NCBI GenBank assembly: GCA_946645685.1
Contig: CAMPCJ010000009.1
Span: 1 to 32,857, forward strand
Direction of reading: 5' to 3'
From: an uncultured Clostridia bacterium
GTDB lineage: Bacteria; Bacillota; Clostridia; Oscillospirales; SIG627
Length of the DNA stretch: 32,857 nucleotides
Shown here: piece by piece, positions 9,852 to 26,971 of the stretch
How the letters are laid out: every line of letters begins with the position of its first letter
Position numbering within the stretch: position 1 is the stretch's first letter
Made by a program: the position numbers and the translations under genes
Notes under the pieces: model-generated
The model's database searches: none
Seen by the model: only the letters and a program-made list of their open reading frames with translations
Told to the model about the DNA's origin: nothing

Positions 9852-9936
9852 ACAGATGCAAGGAAGAGAGGGAACAAAAAAAGAAGCAGCGAAAACCCAG
9901 TGAGCTTCTCCGAATCCAACCGGGAGGTACGGTCCC

Positions 9937-9972
9937 ATGTACAGAATCGAATCCGCGAGAGACGAAATCTGA
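9937..9972 (+). CDS. Micro-ORF 1 of the cassette array (11 aa)
   Basis: ATG inside cassette copy 1, preceded by GGGAGG at 9 nt; peptide MYRIESARDEI then TGA. The stop is 6 nt before the ribosome binding site of the next cassette, like a tiny operon. Translation is inferred only from the ribosome binding site and the parallel with micro-ORF 2. Confidence 0.3.
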   Translation: MYRIESARDEI

Positions 9973-9991
9973 GAAAGCGAGGTACGGTCCC

Positions 9992-10027
9992 ATGTTCCAC
10001 TCCGAAGAGGCGCAGACCCCGATCTGA
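9992..10027 (+). CDS. Micro-ORF 2 of the cassette array (11 aa)
   Basis: ATG inside cassette copy 2, preceded by GCGAGG; peptide MFHSEEAQTPI then TGA. It has the same length as micro-ORF 1 and the same ATC-TGA-GAAA end, although the peptides differ. The equal length and shared ends support duplication of a 55-bp unit rather than chance. Confidence 0.3.
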   Translation: MFHSEEAQTPI

Positions 10028-10244
10028 GAAACACCTGATCCGAAGGGAAACGCCCCTGCACAAGCCCAAAGGCAAAGACGTGGATGAAAACAACACAGAC
10101 CAGCGAGGTACGGTCCCATGTACAAGTTCTGAAAAGCCCCGGCTTCATTCCAACAAGGAGGTACGGTCCAAAGGAAGTCTTCTGATCGCAAAGACCCGGA
10201 CAAACGGCAAAAACCCCATCAAACAGGAAAGCAGGTAAAGACCC

Positions 10245-10277
10245 ATGACAAGGCTTGATCCCCCTGACAACACCTGA
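10245..10277 (+). CDS. Micro-ORF at the last, degenerate cassette (10 aa)
   Basis: ATG of copy 5 (AGG 9-10 nt upstream); peptide MTRLDPPDNT. Its TGA is the first three bases of the terminator stem, an arrangement that would let translation touch terminator folding. Confidence 0.25.
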   Translation: MTRLDPPDNT

Positions 10278-10326
10278 CCCCGGTACCGAAGAAAAACGAA
10301 ATCGGTACCGGGGTCATTCTTTTTTT
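10275..10326 (+). terminator. Perfect intrinsic terminator of the cassette transcript
   Basis: A 15-bp perfect stem (TGACCCCGGTACCGA, 10275-10289, with 10302-10316), 12-nt loop, then TTCTTTTTTTTG. The U-tract is on the plus strand, so it terminates plus-strand transcripts. On the minus strand no U-tract follows, though the hairpin may stabilise the 3' end of the operon ending at 10331. Confidence 0.88.
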
Positions 10327-10330
10327 GTTT

Positions 10331-10870
10331 TCAGAAAGTCGCGATCTGGAACAGGTAGCTTTCGCCCGCTGCCAGAGTCAGCTCTCCCGCGCCCACGTTG
10401 GCGCTGTAGTAGGTCACGCCTTCCAGCTCCACGGTGGTGGTGTACTCGCCTCCCACGTCCACGATGCCCTCGGTGGTGGTATCGGTGGTGTAAATGAAGA
10501 TGTATTCGCTCTTGGAGGCGTCGGGCTCCAGCCCGCCGATGGCGGTGATCATACCGTTGTCCAGGGTGGCCTCAAACACGTCCGCGTACGCCTCGGAGGT
10601 GATGGCGTCCTGCAGGGTGGCGCCTTCTTTCAGGTCAGCCAGATCCACGGTGCGCTCCTGAATGGAGCCCTCGTCGGCGATGAGCACCTTGACGGTCGCT
10701 TCGTCGGCGGTTTCCTCGGTGGCGGTGGTCGCTTCCCCGGCGGTTTGGACGGTCTTTTCCGCCGTTTCGGCGGGGGCGGTGGTCTTCTTTACCGCTTCCT
10801 GGCTGCAGGCGGCGAGGCTGAAGAGCATCACCAGCGCCAGGAGAAGAGAGACGATTTTGAGTTGTTTCAT
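10331..10870 (-). CDS. Lipoprotein with a DUF4430-like C-terminal domain, last gene of the cobalamin-riboswitch operon
   Basis: 179 aa. The signal peptide ends LFSLAAC (Cys22); an Ala/Thr/Glu-rich linker to about residue 58 extends the domain from the membrane. The C-terminal ~115 residues (TVKVLIADEGSIQERTVDLA, LKEGATLQDAI, NGMITAIGGLEP, SEYIFIYTTD and a final LAAGESYLFQI) follow the order of the transcobalamin C-terminal/DUF4430 beta domain: strand, helix after GATLQDAI, central Gly turn, paired strands, final GE/GD turn. The match is weaker than for the 13911 gene. ATG 10870 overlaps the S-component stop (ATGA), with AAAGGA upstream. Role inferred: surface capture of a corrinoid for the ECF transporter. 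Confidence 0.7.
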   Translation of the reverse strand: MKQLKIVSLLLALVMLFSLAACSQEAVKKTTAPAETAEKTVQTAGEATTATEETADEATVKVLIADEGSIQERTVDLADLKEGATLQDAITSEAYADVFEATLDNGMITAIGGLEPDASKSEYIFIYTTDTTTEGIVDVGGEYTTTVELEGVTYYSANVGAGELTLAAGESYLFQIATF

Positions 10871-11565
10871 GTTTGTTTTTCCTTTCTGTTTTTGTGTATT
10901 ACGAATCCGTATTTGCGACTGAGCCGTTCCGTGATGCGGCGCATTCCGGGCGTGAGAAGCCAGAGAAAGAGCGCGTTGGAGACGGCGTAGGTCACCGTTA
11001 CGGGGATCGCCGCGGCAAGGTAAGTCAGATAGCGGACAAGGGAGAAGCCGCCTTCCTGAAATACCGTGGTGAAAACGTCCATCACGGCGCTGTAAAACAC
11101 GCCGGACAGAACGCCGAACAGCCCTTGAACGAGAGGGCTTTTTTTGATGCCGGGGACCAGGGCGGCAAAGCCGCCGATGGCGCCCCAGGCGAGCATTTGG
11201 AAGGGAGTCCAGGGCCCCTGACCGAAATAGAAATTGGAAAGCAGGGCGGTGAGAGCGCCGCAGAGGAAGCCGAATTGACCGCCGAAAAAGGCGCCACCAA
11301 GCGCCACCAGCGCCGCCACGGGCTTAAAAGAGGGAAAGGGGGCAAACAGCACGCGCCCCGCCACGCTCATAGCGGTAAAGGAGGCGAGCAGGACGGCAAA
11401 ACGGGCGCTTATCTTGCCCTCTTCAAAGCGCAGGAAAAAAGGGAGCGTCAGTGCCAGGCATAGAACGGCAGTGAACAGTGCGGCGCGGTTTTCCCCATAG
11501 AGGAGAAAGAGAAGCAGCAGAAACGCGGCAAAGACGGTCAGAAGAAGGGGGACGGAGCGTTTCAC
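10867..11565 (-). CDS. ECF transporter S component (substrate-binding membrane protein), probably for cobalamin
   Basis: 232 aa, about six hydrophobic helices. Typical S-component features are FPSFKPVAALVALGGAFFGGQFGFLCGALTALLSNFYFGQGPWTPFQMLAWG and a basic C-terminal tail. It resembles the CbrT/QueT-like branch. The substrate is inferred from the operon's cobalamin riboswitch. The start is GTG 11565, sharing GTGA with the ATPase stop, with GGAGGTGAAAG upstream. It is encoded beside its own T and A components, making this a dedicated (group I-like) ECF module. Confidence 0.85.
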   Translation of the reverse strand: MKRSVPLLLTVFAAFLLLLFLLYGENRAALFTAVLCLALTLPFFLRFEEGKISARFAVLLASFTAMSVAGRVLFAPFPSFKPVAALVALGGAFFGGQFGFLCGALTALLSNFYFGQGPWTPFQMLAWGAIGGFAALVPGIKKSPLVQGLFGVLSGVFYSAVMDVFTTVFQEGGFSLVRYLTYLAAAIPVTVTYAVSNALFLWLLTPGMRRITERLSRKYGFVIHKNRKEKQT

Positions 11566-13091
11566 GGCGCTTTCACCTCCTCCGGCGCAAGGGCTTTCCC
11601 GTCCGTGACGCGGGCGGTGGGGGTTGTGAAGAGGTGCAGTTCCCGGAAAAAGAGATCGGTCTCTTCCAGTGCGGCGAATTCGCCGTTGAACAGGAGCGCG
11701 CAGCGATCCGCCGTCACGGCGGCGAAAGCGGCGTCATGGGTGACGAGAAGGATGCCGGCGCCTTCTTGCTTCCACCGGGTGAGAAGGGCGGCGAGGGCGG
11801 CTTTGGCGCCGCCGTCCAGCCCGTGGGTGGGCTCGTCCAGAAGCAAGACGTCCGGGCGGATCAGAGAAAGCTTTGCCAGCGCCGCCCGCTGTCTTTCGCC
11901 GCCGGACAGATCCAGGGGGTGCCGACCGGCGAGGGGGGGAAGATCAAAGCGGGACAGGGCTTCCCGAACTTTTTCGGGAGACGAAACGGAGAGCATCTCT
12001 TCCTCCAGGGTCTCCTTCTCAAACAGGCAGCGCACGTCCTGGGGGAGATAGGCGAGCTTCGCGCCGCCGGCAAGACGGCGTTTTCCCCGGACGGGGGAGA
12101 GCTCGCCCGACAAAAGGCGCAGCAGGGTGCTTTTTCCGGAGCCGCCTTTGCCCAGGACGGCGACGATCTCGCCCCGGGAGAGGGTCAGATCCAAGCCGGA
12201 GAGGAGATCGGGGGCGTTTTTCTCAAAGCGGAAGGACAGGTCGCGAAGGGACAGCAGCGCTTCTCCGGCGCACTTTACCCGGGGAAGGGGAGCCACCGTG
12301 TAGGGGAGGGCGGAAAGGGCGCGTTTTCCCTCGCTGTCAGTCAAGGGCAGGGTCTCTTTTTCTCCCAGGGAAAACGCGAGCCGGGCGCTTTCCGGGACGA
12401 AGGAGCCCCGCCCGGTGGTCAGAAGGAACCGGGCGGCTTCCCGGGGGGAGCCGTTGAACAGCAGCGCGCCGTTTTCCAGATAGAGGACGCGGTCCGCTTC
12501 GGCGAAAAAGGGATCACAGGTCTGCTCCGCCAAAAGGACGGTGCCGCCGCCCTCACGGCGGATGCGGTTGAGCGCTTCCGCCAGATCCCGTTTTGCCAGG
12601 GGATCCAGGGTGCTTGCGGGCTCGTCCAGCAGGAACAAGCCGGGGCGATCCGCCAAAAACGCCGCCAGGAGCGTTTTGACTTTTTCACTGCCGGAGAGGG
12701 AGGAGACGTCCCGGTAAAAGAGCGGCTCCAACCCTAAAAAACCCGCCGCTTCCGCTACCCGCAGGCGTATTTCTTCCGTGGGCAGTCCCCGGTTTTCCGG
12801 GGCAAAGGCAAGTTCCCGCCACACCTTGTCCGTGACCAGCGCCAGATCCGCGTCCTGCCGGAGCAGGGCGGTGCGGGGCGCGCCGCCGGGGAACGAGACG
12901 TGCCCGCTTCTCTTTCCGGGCAGATCCCCCCGATTTTGAAGGAGGGACAACAGGGTGGTCTTGCCGCCGCCGTTGGGGGAAAGGATCAGGCACAGTTCCC
13001 CCTCCTCCACGGAGAAGGACAGGTTGTCCAGGGCTTTTTTTTCGCCGCCGGGATAGGAAAAGGACAGATCCTTTACTTCGAGGAGCGCCAT
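11562..13091 (-). CDS. Energy-coupling factor ATPase with two fused ABC domains (EcfA-EcfA')
   Basis: 509 aa. NBD1: Walker A LSPNGGGKTT (about residues 37-46), signature LSGSE (132-136), Walker B LFLLDEP (D156-E157), and LLAEQT where the H-loop His should be (Q190). NBD2: Walker A LGKGGSGKST (313-322), signature LSGGERQR (395-402), Walker B VLLLDEP (D419-E420), H-loop VTHD (H452). The two halves energise the EcfT/S complex. NBD1 has an altered signature and no H-loop His, so hydrolysis at the two sites is probably unequal. ATG 13091 is preceded by AAAGGAG and overlaps ecfT by 19 bp. Fused pairs are known for CbiO/YkoD-type systems. Confidence 0.92.
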   Translation of the reverse strand: MALLEVKDLSFSYPGGEKKALDNLSFSVEEGELCLILSPNGGGKTTLLSLLQNRGDLPGKRSGHVSFPGGAPRTALLRQDADLALVTDKVWRELAFAPENRGLPTEEIRLRVAEAAGFLGLEPLFYRDVSSLSGSEKVKTLLAAFLADRPGLFLLDEPASTLDPLAKRDLAEALNRIRREGGGTVLLAEQTCDPFFAEADRVLYLENGALLFNGSPREAARFLLTTGRGSFVPESARLAFSLGEKETLPLTDSEGKRALSALPYTVAPLPRVKCAGEALLSLRDLSFRFEKNAPDLLSGLDLTLSRGEIVAVLGKGGSGKSTLLRLLSGELSPVRGKRRLAGGAKLAYLPQDVRCLFEKETLEEEMLSVSSPEKVREALSRFDLPPLAGRHPLDLSGGERQRAALAKLSLIRPDVLLLDEPTHGLDGGAKAALAALLTRWKQEGAGILLVTHDAAFAAVTADRCALLFNGEFAALEETDLFFRELHLFTTPTARVTDGKALAPEEVKAP

Positions 13092-13921
13092 TGCAGTTTC
13101 TCCTTTCGTTCCGCCGCGGCGGGTAAAAATGCCAAAAAGGCGGGCAGGGCGTACCACGCCCAGTGCCCGCTTCGGGCAAGGACGGGATAACAGGTGAAGC
13201 GATAGGCGCCGAGACAGTAGGCCGCGAGAGAGAGGCTTGTCAACAGCAGGGTGAGGAAAACGGCGGCGCCGTCTCTGCCCCGGAAGCGGTAGAGCGCGTA
13301 GCGGCTCGGCTTTGCCGCGCCGTAGCCCCGCTCTTCCATCCCGGCGGCGATCTCACAGCATTCCTCCAGCGTCAGCGCCACGCCGGTTTGCAGAGCGAGA
13401 AAGGCGTTTTTCAAGGTATGTTCCGGGTGGAACGCCGCTTGCGCGGCGCGCGCCTGGCGCATCCGGGTCATGAGTCTGGGGACGAAGCGGATCGCCATGG
13501 TGAAAACCAGGGTCGTCCGGGGGAGTACTTTGCCCGGAAAAACCAGAGCGGCATCCGGGGGAAGGACGCGAAACAACGCCTCGCACCACAAGATCACGTT
13601 CGCCAGCATGGCGCCGCTGACGGCGCCGTAAACGGCGGCTTCTCCCGTCACGGGAGAGGCGCCCAGGTAAAACAGGACGGTGACGCCCCGATGGGAGATG
13701 AGAGGGTTGGTCACGGCGCCGAGGGCGGTCAGCGCGGCGAAGAAAGCCAGGCGTTTCGCCGCAAAAGGCGCGCCGCTCACCTCCCCGTCAAACGCGATCG
13801 CCCCCGCCGCCAAAAGCAGGGCGGAGAAGGGATCCTTCGTGAGAAAGGCGAGAAGCAGGATGCTTCCGCCCAGGGCGTAGGAGGAGGCGGGGTGCAGCCG
13901 TGAAAGAGCGCTACGACGCAT
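13073..13921 (-). CDS. ecfT: ECF transporter transmembrane T component
   Basis: 282 aa with hydrophobic segments at both ends and a cytosolic coupling region rich in Arg/Ala, including MTRMRQARAAQAAF and ECCEIAAGMEERGYG, the equivalents of the two coupling motifs that contact the ATPases (the second ends RGYG where RGF/RGY is usual). ATG 13921 is chosen because the reading upstream lies inside the DUF4430 gene, which it overlaps by 11 bp. It sits with the A and S genes in the riboswitch-controlled operon. Confidence 0.88.
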   Translation of the reverse strand: MRRSALSRLHPASSYALGGSILLLAFLTKDPFSALLLAAGAIAFDGEVSGAPFAAKRLAFFAALTALGAVTNPLISHRGVTVLFYLGASPVTGEAAVYGAVSGAMLANVILWCEALFRVLPPDAALVFPGKVLPRTTLVFTMAIRFVPRLMTRMRQARAAQAAFHPEHTLKNAFLALQTGVALTLEECCEIAAGMEERGYGAAKPSRYALYRFRGRDGAAVFLTLLLTSLSLAAYCLGAYRFTCYPVLARSGHWAWYALPAFLAFLPAAAERKEKLQWRSSK

Positions 13922-14414
13922 GGCTGCCCACGTCCTTTCCCAGATCCAGGGTGTAGACCCAGAGGACTTCATCCCCATCCGTCAGAGACGCGTCCCCGGC
14001 GCTTTTGGATAAAAAGGAGCCGTTCACGGAAAACATCCATCCGCTTTGCGCGCCGCAGTCGAATTCAAATAGGGCGCCGATCCCCTCCACGTAAACGCCC
14101 CAGCGGGTGCCGCCTTTGGAGGAGAGGGCGATCTTTTGCGCCCGGCAGTACCGCTCCAGAACGGAGAAGGCGGTGTCGTTTTCATATAGAGTCACTTCCG
14201 CTTCCGCCATGACGCCGTCTTCCGGCAGGACGGCGCGGACGGGCTCTTTCAGATCCGGGGAGGCGAGCGCCCGGTCGCAGCGGACGGAAAGCTTCACCGT
14301 GCCGACGGCTTCCCCGTCCTTTTGCGGGGAGAAGACGCCGTTTTGCCACAGGATCGCCAGGATCACAAGAAGGAGCGCCGCGGCGGGAAGCAGGAGGCGA
14401 AGGATCTTTTTCAA
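13911..14414 (-). CDS. Membrane-anchored DUF4430 (transcobalamin C-terminal-like) protein
   Basis: 167 aa. One N-terminal hydrophobic segment (LLLPAAALLLVILAILW) without a lipobox Cys, so a signal anchor is likely. A DUF4430 domain covers about residues 70-162: AEVTLYENDTAFSVLERYC, WGVYVEGIGALFEFDCGAQSGWMFSVNGSF and a final TDGDEVLWVYTLDLGKDVG. This beta domain is the C-terminal half of transcobalamin and intrinsic factor, where it closes over the cobalamin face. TTG 14414 is chosen as start: it overlaps the upstream TGA (TTGA) and has GGGGG 8 nt upstream; a GTG at 14423 would leave no spacing. It follows the alpha/alpha-barrel lipoprotein gene directly. Confidence 0.88.
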   Translation of the reverse strand: MKKILRLLLPAAALLLVILAILWQNGVFSPQKDGEAVGTVKLSVRCDRALASPDLKEPVRAVLPEDGVMAEAEVTLYENDTAFSVLERYCRAQKIALSSKGGTRWGVYVEGIGALFEFDCGAQSGWMFSVNGSFLSKSAGDASLTDGDEVLWVYTLDLGKDVGSHAS

Positions 14415-15430
14415 CTCGCGCACCCCCTGTCGAACAGCCTTTCACCCCGCTCAAAAAGCTCCAGCGCCGCCAGCGCCAGAAGCGCCTGACAGGTGGCGAT
14501 GCCGCCGCCTGCCTCTTCCCCTTCTTTGGCGGGGAAGGAGCCGTCCGGCAATTGATAGCGCAGGAGCGCCGTCACGGGGTTGCCGCCCTCTTTCTGAAAG
14601 CGTTCATCCGAGGCGGGGTCGATCCCCAGCGCGGTGAGCGCCAATATCACCTGGCTGACGCTCATGGGATTATGGGTGCCGAAGCTTTCGAAACCGCCGT
14701 CCGGCAGTTGCTTTTCAGAGAGCAGCTCCAGCCCCTTTTCCACGGCGGCGTCCACCTTTTCCTCTCCCCGGAAGCGGGCGAGCCCGGACAGGGCCATGGC
14801 GGTGGTGTCCGCGTCGGAGTCAAAATTGCCAAACACCCAGCCGCCGTCTTCGTGCTGAGCGGCAAGGAGCAGATCGATCAATTCCGACCGGGACTGGGAG
14901 GCGTTTTCGGGTACGGCGTAGCCGCCGGCTCCCAGGAAGATCAGCGCCCACGCCACGCCGTTGCATCCCTGGGAGGTAAGGGGCGCGACTTTCCCCCGAT
15001 CCCAGATGCCGTCCGCCGCCAGGTCGGCGCCGGCAACGTTCCGGGCGTCGTCTCCCAGCGCCAGAAAGCACAGACCGATCCGGTGCCATTCCGTCGCCAG
15101 GGAGCGGCTGAGTTTATCCTGTGTTTCATAGCGGGAGGAAACGTAGGCGGTCAGTGCGTCGCGGTATACCTTTGCGCCCTCCGTTCGTCCCGTTCTGGTC
15201 AGCGCCAGCGCGATCCAGTCCTGTCCGCTTTGCCCGGCGTTTTCCGCAAGCGCCCGATACAGACCGGGCAGGTCGTGAACGCCCTCCGCCGCCATCAGGT
15301 AAGACAGGGTCTTTTCCAGGGGAGAGGACGCCGGGACGGTGGCGGCGGGCAGCGCCCTTTGGGAAGCGGAGCAGCTCCAGAGGGAAAGGAGCAGACACAG
15401 ACTAAGCACAAAAGAGAGCGTTCGTTTCAT
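14411..15430 (-). CDS. Lipoprotein with terpenoid-cyclase/transcobalamin-like alpha/alpha barrel
   Basis: 339 aa. A signal peptide with lipobox LWSC (Cys20) precedes repeats of the prenyltransferase/squalene-cyclase class: IDLLLAAQHEDGGWVFGNFDSDADTTAMALSGLARF, GLELLSEKQLPDGGFESFGTHNPMSVSQVILALTALGI, ALLRYQLPDGSFPAKEGEEAGGGIATCQALLALAAL. The DGGW/DGGF/DGSF repeats mark the alpha-6/alpha-6 barrel that forms the N-terminal cobalamin-binding domain of transcobalamin. A cell-surface location and a riboswitch operon argue against an enzyme of terpene or peptide prenylation. AGGAAGC precedes ATG 15430. It is coupled to the genes on both sides (ATGA upstream, TTGA downstream). Confidence 0.87.
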   Translation of the reverse strand: MKRTLSFVLSLCLLLSLWSCSASQRALPAATVPASSPLEKTLSYLMAAEGVHDLPGLYRALAENAGQSGQDWIALALTRTGRTEGAKVYRDALTAYVSSRYETQDKLSRSLATEWHRIGLCFLALGDDARNVAGADLAADGIWDRGKVAPLTSQGCNGVAWALIFLGAGGYAVPENASQSRSELIDLLLAAQHEDGGWVFGNFDSDADTTAMALSGLARFRGEEKVDAAVEKGLELLSEKQLPDGGFESFGTHNPMSVSQVILALTALGIDPASDERFQKEGGNPVTALLRYQLPDGSFPAKEGEEAGGGIATCQALLALAALELFERGERLFDRGCAS

Positions 15431-15675
15431 GCTTCTTCCTCCCGCTTCGCCGCCCGCGCCCGCCGGGCAAGCCGCGCTTTTTTTCTGCGCTTTTCCCGGT
15501 TTTTGTCCAGGCTCGTATTCTTTCTCGCTTCTTTCAGTCCCGCCGCTTCCAGCGCACGGGGCCAGGGACCCAGCGCCCCTTTGATGCGCGCGGCGTCCTC
15601 CGGGGAAAAATCCGCCTTTTTGGGCAGGCGGGAAAGCTCTGCCGCTTTTGTCCGCAGCAGTGTGACGGCGTCCAT
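15427..15675 (-). CDS. Small basic protein with a homing-endonuclease-associated (HNH-repeat) motif
   Basis: 82 aa, the first gene behind the cobalamin riboswitch. The N-terminal half, LLRTKAAELSRLP, then FSPEDAARIKGALGPWPRALEAAGL, follows the short helical repeat associated with HNH/homing endonucleases (FGSW..ALEAAGL type), usually a DNA-binding add-on. The C-terminal 30 residues are almost all Lys/Arg/Ala (DKNREKRRKKARLARRARAAKREEE). No nuclease domain is present. ATG 15675 has AAAGGGG upstream and its TGA overlaps the next ATG (ATGA), so it is a real, translated cistron. Function is unknown; nucleic-acid binding is inferred. Confidence 0.75.
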   Translation of the reverse strand: MDAVTLLRTKAAELSRLPKKADFSPEDAARIKGALGPWPRALEAAGLKEARKNTSLDKNREKRRKKARLARRARAAKREEEA

Positions 15676-15699
15676 GGTTTTCCCCTTTCGTCATAGGAT

Positions 15700-15730
15700 A
15701 AAAAAGCGCCTTTCCGGAAAACGGAAAAGC
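15700..15730 (-). terminator. Riboswitch expression-platform terminator
   Basis: Minus strand: GCTTTTCCG / CGGAAAGGC (9 bp, one G.U, loop TTTTC), then GCTTTTTT. It lies between the aptamer and the first ribosome binding site. Just upstream (15730-15780) a longer imperfect hairpin pairs GCGGCAC with GTGCCGC and ACCCGG with CCGGGGT. Confidence 0.75.
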
Positions 15731-15807
15731 GGCACAGCAAAAGACCCCGGGCATCTGTCCGGGTGTTTTGACCGTGCCGCCTCTCGTCCAAGCGATCGTG
15801 TCCTAAA

Positions 15808-15913
15808 GAATGCGGCGGTATTCTGACTCATTTCTCACAGTAATGACGGTTGCTCCGGATTCTCACCGGATTTCCGCTTTGATCCACCGGGCAGCGCCCT
15901 CGGAACCGCATTC
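15808..15913 (-). promoter_or_regulatory. Cobalamin riboswitch (compact form)
   Basis: The minus strand shows a perfect 8-bp P1 (GAATGCGG at 15906-15913 with CCGCATTC at 15808-15815). Core elements appear in the expected order: GCGGAAATCCGGTGAGAATC, CGGAGCAACCGTCATTACTGTGA and GAGTCAGAATACC. The long peripheral stems usually found between ACTGTGA and the final GTCAGGA-like strand are missing. Ligand-bound RNA is expected to shut off the seven-gene operon through the downstream terminator. Confidence 0.88.
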
Positions 15914-15924
15914 GTTGTATCTCT

Positions 15925-15953
15925 ATCCTACCACGGTGCGAAAAAAATGTCAA
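15925..15953 (-). promoter_or_regulatory. Sigma-A promoter of the cobalamin-riboswitch operon
   Basis: Minus strand: TTGACA (15948-15953), 17-bp spacer, TAGGAT (15925-15930) preceded by TGG. The predicted start falls immediately before the aptamer P1. It diverges from the amidase promoter. Confidence 0.88.
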
Positions 15954-26850: not shown

Positions 26851-26880
26851 TGCCAATCTCCTGAAAAAAAGGAAATCGTA

Positions 26881-26942
26881 CCAATAGTCGCAACTTGGCG
26901 TGCGGTAGATACTTTCGGGCCATACATCCGAAATTATATTGG
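26881..26942 (-). promoter_or_regulatory. Purine (guanine-type) riboswitch aptamer upstream of xpt
   Basis: Minus strand: P1 CCAATA/TATTGG, then TATAATTTCGG, L2 containing TGTATGG, CCGAAA, J2/3 AGTATCTACC, a short P3 arm CGCA/TGCG, and J3/1 GACTATTGG. The C in GACTAT is the position that selects guanine/hypoxanthine (U in adenine aptamers). P3 is shorter than usual (about 4 bp). Ligand binding should favour the terminator and lower xpt and transporter expression. Confidence 0.87.
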
Positions 26943-26971
26943 CAGATCGTTGTATTAGATTTTCTGACTCC

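Follow-up and report, generated by a model that had tools for sequence, protein, structure and literature searches.

Here we report an operon on the minus strand of a 32,857-nucleotide stretch of DNA (hereafter the window; contig CAMPCJ010000009.1 of assembly GCA_946645685.1) from an uncultured Clostridia bacterium of the order Oscillospirales. In this operon a cobalamin riboswitch is followed by seven overlapping, densely packed cistrons encoding, in order, an HNH_repeat protein, an alpha/alpha-toroid lipoprotein, an anchored DUF4430 protein, the energy-coupling factor (ECF) proteins EcfT, EcfA-EcfA' and S component, and a DUF4430-like lipoprotein. We consider it probable that the operon is dedicated to cobalamin import, is repressed by B12, belongs to a bacterium that requires the vitamin, and is equipped with transcobalamin-like split capture proteins. 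A preliminary description, made from the DNA letters and their open reading frames, had placed the seven cistrons and the riboswitch at this location, and both were borne out by Pfam matches and by an RF00174 score over the gathering threshold (Table 1).

The proposed sequence of events is as follows: (i) when B12 is low, the riboswitch would be unbound and the operon transcribed, as attenuator-like hairpins in the leader suggest; (ii) the toroid lipoprotein and the DUF4430 (SLBB) protein, both extracellular and anchored, would correspond to a transcobalamin-like capture protein divided into its alpha- and beta-domains and may close on a corrinoid; (iii) the CbrT-like S component would receive the corrinoid from this pair, and EcfT and EcfA-EcfA' would drive its import, as expected of their families; and (iv) the imported cargo would feed the methionine synthase MetH.

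The fold likeness of the toroid plus beta-domain pair to the animal B12 carriers is well supported by structure prediction. A natural fusion of the two domains from a related locus (L114) was modelled with a predicted local distance difference test score (pLDDT) of 90.7 and a predicted template modelling score of 0.73, and was compared with 350,542 PDB chains using Foldseek. The top 15 matches were all transcobalamin (TC), haptocorrin (HC) or intrinsic factor (IF), at E 3e-9 to 3e-7 and with both domains spanned, while the first terpene cyclase followed two orders of magnitude behind (E 4.5e-5). Both domains aligned with those of IF (Z 17.8), and the isolated human TC beta domain (5no0) was matched with TMt 0.75, the strands following the helix in the model. 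Together with the DUF4430 profile, which matches the beta domain of IF, HC and TC (hhalign probability 94, pairwise E 1e-7; 0.07 for a control pair), this upholds the toroid and transcobalamin-type beta-domain architecture put forward in the preliminary description. Its expectation that both proteins would fall with transcobalamin families held for DUF4430 and failed for the toroid, as detailed below. Human TC and IF match PF14478 weakly (1.2e-4 and 2.9e-3, below the model cut-off), and neither the sequence nor the profile of the DUF4430 protein found a transcobalamin match in the PDB. Since the isolated alpha and beta domains of TC both bind B12, and associate only when B12 is present (PMC11107200), a split carrier is physically plausible.

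Relatives of the toroid and DUF4430 proteins co-occur in many genera (58 related genomes), in the same operon order and with cobalamin-family riboswitches, and in a sister species (L051) the two capture genes are likewise separate, all seven genes being conserved together with a cobalamin riboswitch. A search restricted to one genome per species returned at least 578 relatives, the best 80 of which, from Ruminococcus flavefaciens and gut and rumen Clostridia, were examined. All 80 encode one fused protein consisting of a signal peptide, the toroid, a linker, a two-helix membrane hairpin and DUF4430, although this set cannot gauge the frequency of the split form because it was retrieved with fused query proteins. 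EcfT, EcfAA' and EcfS are encoded nearby in 70/80 of these loci and only an S component in 4/80, and a B12-riboswitch match (nhmmer E<1e-3) lies on the coding strand 0.5-2.6 kb upstream, mostly 0.95-1.3 kb, in 43/80; cmscan reached Rfam thresholds in 9 of the 19 relative loci scanned. Occurrence of the capture proteins beside ECF genes and cobalamin riboswitches, as the preliminary description had envisaged, is thus recurrent, in fused form in the best 80. In one split locus (L053) the break falls between the two membrane helices, such that the toroid protein ends with one and the DUF4430 protein starts with the other, which looks from the gene sequences like an intermediate between fused and split states. 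Split and fused forms are interspersed on a tree of the ECF core, which favours neither gene fission nor gene fusion.

Somewhat short of an even chance, in our estimate, is the stronger proposal that the two separately anchored transcobalamin-type domains clamp the corrinoid at the cell surface and load the S component directly, and that the fused form of gut Clostridia, with its two membrane helices, is a living bacterial relative of the stock behind animal IF and TC. An unlikely alternative, though the one that survives best, retains the same importer and has the toroid and DUF4430 proteins each working on its own, perhaps as one of several receptors that could take up cobamides, cobinamide or B12 bound to protein. 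It would accommodate the different anchors of the two proteins in the window, the capacity of each isolated TC domain to bind B12 (PMC11107200), and those operons of relatives in which SLBB and toroid proteins are several in number and vary in architecture. It sits poorly with a fused form that is widespread among loci chosen with a fused query and is also the animal form, and with the adjacency of the two genes, whose ends overlap in both the window and the sister species.

Several arrangements in related loci are recorded here in their own right. In L113, L121, L123 and L132 an S component directly follows the fused capture gene with EcfT and EcfA not nearby, which suggests use of a shared ECF module. 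At L078:11857-12833 (= G002 C5) the fused capture gene is succeeded by an EcfT frame that is shortened and, without an intervening EcfAA', by a short S component, as though a deletion had occurred; this genome also has a second locus, L053, that is split and complete. Single-chain surface proteins of approximately 930-1030 aa with toroid-DUF4430-toroid order and an SLH-like-looking C-terminal region are encoded at L059:2307-5411 (-) and L054:1611-4403 (-), with a cobalamin riboswitch immediately upstream of the gene in L059. In most Ruminococcus-type loci an anchored surface protein of approximately 310 aa (L081:8983-10011, L107:7777-8757 and similar), with an EF-hand-like DxDxDG loop and a ENGGSYGYYVNN motif, is encoded between the riboswitch and the fused gene; its comparison with DUF4430 was insignificant (probability 1.3). 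In L082 the HNH_repeat gene is separated from the capture genes by a gene (L082:7912-8451) for a Cys-rich 179-aa protein, which we take to resemble DUF2284.

Three independent lines point to B12 as the predicted cargo: the riboswitch, the CbrT-like S component, and the gene content of the genome. The operon riboswitch is the sole RF00174 match in the 1.65-Mb assembly. A PDB search with the S component as a single sequence gave CbrT (6fnp_A) as the only match (E 2.7e-4), and a 20-member family profile gave 6fnp_A at E 5.7e-17 with 4hzu_S next at 4e-4; 6FNP is the ECF-CbrT complex, with measured cobalamin transport, CbrT being the B12 S component (PMC5997447). Identification of EcfT is based on its family, because the family profile matches solved EcfT chains and 12/14 relatives match CbiQ; the window protein as a single sequence had no Pfam match. 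An adjoining CbrT-family S component, EcfT and two-domain EcfA-EcfA' make up the composition of a dedicated (group I) CbrT-type module. One protein with a B12-binding domain, MetH, was found in the genome, and MetE, CobS, a FecCD/BtuC-type permease, a PduO-type adenosyltransferase and NrdJ had no match in the assembly, which is 94% complete; each of these searches was positive in most of 14 control genomes. From this gene content, the host is apparently a B12 auxotroph whose methionine synthesis relies on import, and the cargo named in the preliminary description is supported. Its further suggestion that the capture pair replaces BtuF is tenable for this genome, in which the search for a FecCD permease gave no match, yet it does not extend to the order as a whole, where both systems coexist in several relatives. 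Among six members of the genus only G003 has a strong FecCD match, and G003 is without the operon; B12-binding domains are nearly universal among the genomes compared and hence uninformative.

That the operon imports another cargo (heme, cobalt or a lower-ligand precursor), with B12 acting merely as regulator, is improbable. The SLBB superfamily has been proposed to bind diverse ligands, a point raised by a reviewer of PMC1796856. Against this stand the CbrT-like S component and the dependence of MetH on a finished cobamide; because the cobamide assembly gene CobS was without a match, the host would gain little from cobalt or a base.

The barrel lipoprotein with DGGW, DGGF and DGSF repeats was confirmed (PF00432, E 1.5e-7) and is predicted as a 12-helix ring (AlphaFold2 pLDDT 84.9). 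Structure comparison places it with squalene-hopene cyclase and drimenyl diphosphate synthase at Z about 22 and with transcobalamin at Z 18.5-18.9, and since it resembles both it is not decisive by itself. Its profile found only cyclases, prenyltransferases and chance matches in the PDB, and two fused relatives had no match to PF01122, the eukaryotic cobalamin-binding family, at E<=0.1. The preliminary description had set its reading against a grouping of the barrel with cyclases having intact catalytic residues, and the finding falls in between, as class II terpene cyclases are the solved structures closest to it in sequence and the DxDD motif is not intact. It is barely credible that the toroid sits in the operon by chance and works outside the cell as an enzyme like the terpene cyclases or prenyltransferases. 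In favour of this idea, squalene-hopene cyclase and drimenyl diphosphate synthase match it best both by sequence and by structure of the single chain, and the first two Asp of DxDD are retained (the window reads DADTT). Against it, the last Asp is replaced, giving DxD[V/A/C/S] in 78/80 relatives (those with a readable motif) and DADT in the window, the protein is held at the surface by a lipoprotein or membrane tether, and it occurs naturally fused to a transcobalamin-type beta domain and under a B12 riboswitch.

A number of points weigh against reading the operon as a B12 importer with a split transcobalamin-like carrier. Taken alone, the toroid ranks closest to class II terpene cyclases in both sequence and structure, it has no match to PF01122 at E<=1, and its profile matches IF only weakly (probability 28), with the conserved Asp and Gln of the toroid (window D206/D208 and Q260) placed at IF Asp204 and Gln252 (the IF query sequence was checked against 2PMV). 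The relative placement of the domains in the fused model carries no score of its own, and because superposition on the carriers is loose (Foldseek rmsd, or root-mean-square deviation, of 10-17; 5.2 over 336 residues for IF) the two-domain arrangement is not established. The gene absences are likely yet uncertain, given the completeness of the assembly, and FecCD, considered as a complementary system, showed no anticorrelation with the operon across the 58 genomes. B12 repression, corrinoid capture and hand-over are all steps that we infer from genes, families and folds.

Features of the operon are compiled in Table 1. A promoter consensus scan of the region gave 3 sites versus 0.5 in shuffles. 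In the leader, a long hairpin (15790-15719) overlaps a terminator-like hairpin (15731-15707) that is followed by CTTTTTT, from which transcription attenuation may be predicted. Genes were correctly recognized in the preliminary description, with small corrections to the starts of the toroid (15430), DUF4430 and EcfT (13921) genes. The open frame of the toroid gene extends further upstream of the start adopted. For the DUF4430 protein the most probable start is a TTG (14414), which overlaps the stop codon before it in the manner of the ATGA of the sister species. The first cistron, previously counted but left unnamed, encodes an HNH_repeat (PF18780) protein, and this gene recurs early in the corresponding operon of many relatives. 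It is present in nine relative loci (L051, L053, L056-L058, L062, L063, L066 and L068) and near the operon in 15/80 further loci, lying immediately 5' of EcfT in L079, L110 and L124. The last gene is present as described and has a homologue in the sister species, its assignment to DUF4430 being weak; its product probably serves in capture or docking, as another protein of SLBB type. Termination at the inverted repeat beyond it is a guess, because the minus strand has no T-run there. Downstream of the operon, a 28-nt direct repeat beginning GAGGTACGGTCCCATGT occurs four times at window positions 9924-10185 with a spacing of 53-126 nt, and elsewhere in the window a purine riboswitch (26865-26961, -) and an L10 leader (2508-2645, -) exceed Rfam thresholds.

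Table 1. Features of the operon, in order of transcription, with window positions and the evidence for each.
Feature	Positions	Strand	Evidence
Sigma-70-like promoter, TTGACA-17-TAGGAT	15925..15953	-	Consensus scan, 10/12 matches; directly upstream of aptamer
Cobalamin riboswitch aptamer, RF00174 short form	15797..15925	-	cmscan 44.1 bits (gathering threshold 31.5), E 4.2e-8
Probable expression platform, two mutually exclusive hairpins	15707..15790	-	Fold z-score -5.7; terminator scan
HNH_repeat (PF18780) protein, small, basic, first cistron	15427..15675	-	PF18780 E 2e-8
Lipoprotein with alpha/alpha toroid and LWSC lipobox; alpha-domain of a predicted corrinoid binder	14411..15430	-	PF00432; AlphaFold2
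DUF4430 (SLBB, transcobalamin-like beta-domain) protein, N-terminal membrane anchor	13911..14414	-	PF14478 E 2e-15
EcfT transmembrane coupling protein	13073..13921	-	Family profile against solved EcfT 5d3m_D, E 2.5e-14
EcfA-EcfA' fused ATPase, two ABC domains	11562..13091	-	PF00005 x2, TIGR04520 E 1e-64
ECF S component, CbrT-like	10867..11565	-	PF07155 E 1.6e-6; 6fnp_A match
Second lipoprotein, divergent DUF4430-like	10331..10870	-	PF14478 E 7e-4, under curated cut-off
Perfect 15-bp inverted repeat, possible operon-end hairpin	10275..10316		Located after last gene

ECF S components are generally regarded as binding their vitamin straight from solution. If our reading is true, a B12 S component and a transcobalamin-fold capture protein in one operon would constitute a new coupling, and would account for the ability of Clostridia of the gut and rumen that lack B12 synthesis to compete for the vitamin.

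The window system is a member of the class predicted by Burroughs et al. in 2007, who described bacterial toroid plus SLBB surface proteins with CbiO and CbiQ neighbours as predicted B12 scavengers, noted paired extracellular SLBB proteins and hosts without B12 synthesis, and proposed transfer to animals as the source of transcobalamin (PMC1796856). The idea of a bacterial counterpart of the animal B12 carriers, advanced in the preliminary description, therefore stands, but not as a new one. Shared with that class are the secreted or surface toroid and SLBB (DUF4430) domains, a CbiO-like ATPase, a CbiQ-like permease and often a second SLBB paralogue; the text available describes fusions, whereas here the genes and anchors are separate and accompanied by a cobalamin riboswitch and a CbrT-like S component. 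That work predates the CbrT structure, presents the B12 role as a prediction and, in the text available, reports no binding test (PMC1796856). Apart from it, no paper naming these proteins as B12 importers was found in the literature searched, which mostly excludes subscription journals.

Like BtuCDF, the operon would use ATP to import B12 across the inner membrane and an extracytoplasmic protein to capture it, although the BtuCDF capture fold and permease are unrelated to those of the operon and a FecCD permease was not found in the assembly. With ECF-CbrT of Lactobacillus delbrueckii (PMC5997447, 6FNP) it shares a CbrT-family S component, EcfT and EcfA ATPases for cobalamin; the cluster there is nrdJ-cbrS-cbrT-pduO, without mention of toroid or DUF4430 in the available text (PMC5997447), whereas the window operon encodes both ATPases in one chain and contains a dedicated module of its own. 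With animal TC, IF and HC it shares the two-domain plan of an alpha/alpha toroid and a beta-grasp domain; the animal carriers are single soluble chains with receptors (CD320, cubilin), in contrast to proteins that are split, membrane-anchored, encoded beside their importer and without a match to PF01122. The operon thereby offers a tractable system for the 2007 proposal of a Gram-positive origin of the animal B12 carriers, to which it adds a carrier encoded in two parts, an S component of the CbrT type, a riboswitch followed by a probable attenuator, the context of an apparent MetH-only auxotroph, and support at the level of structure.

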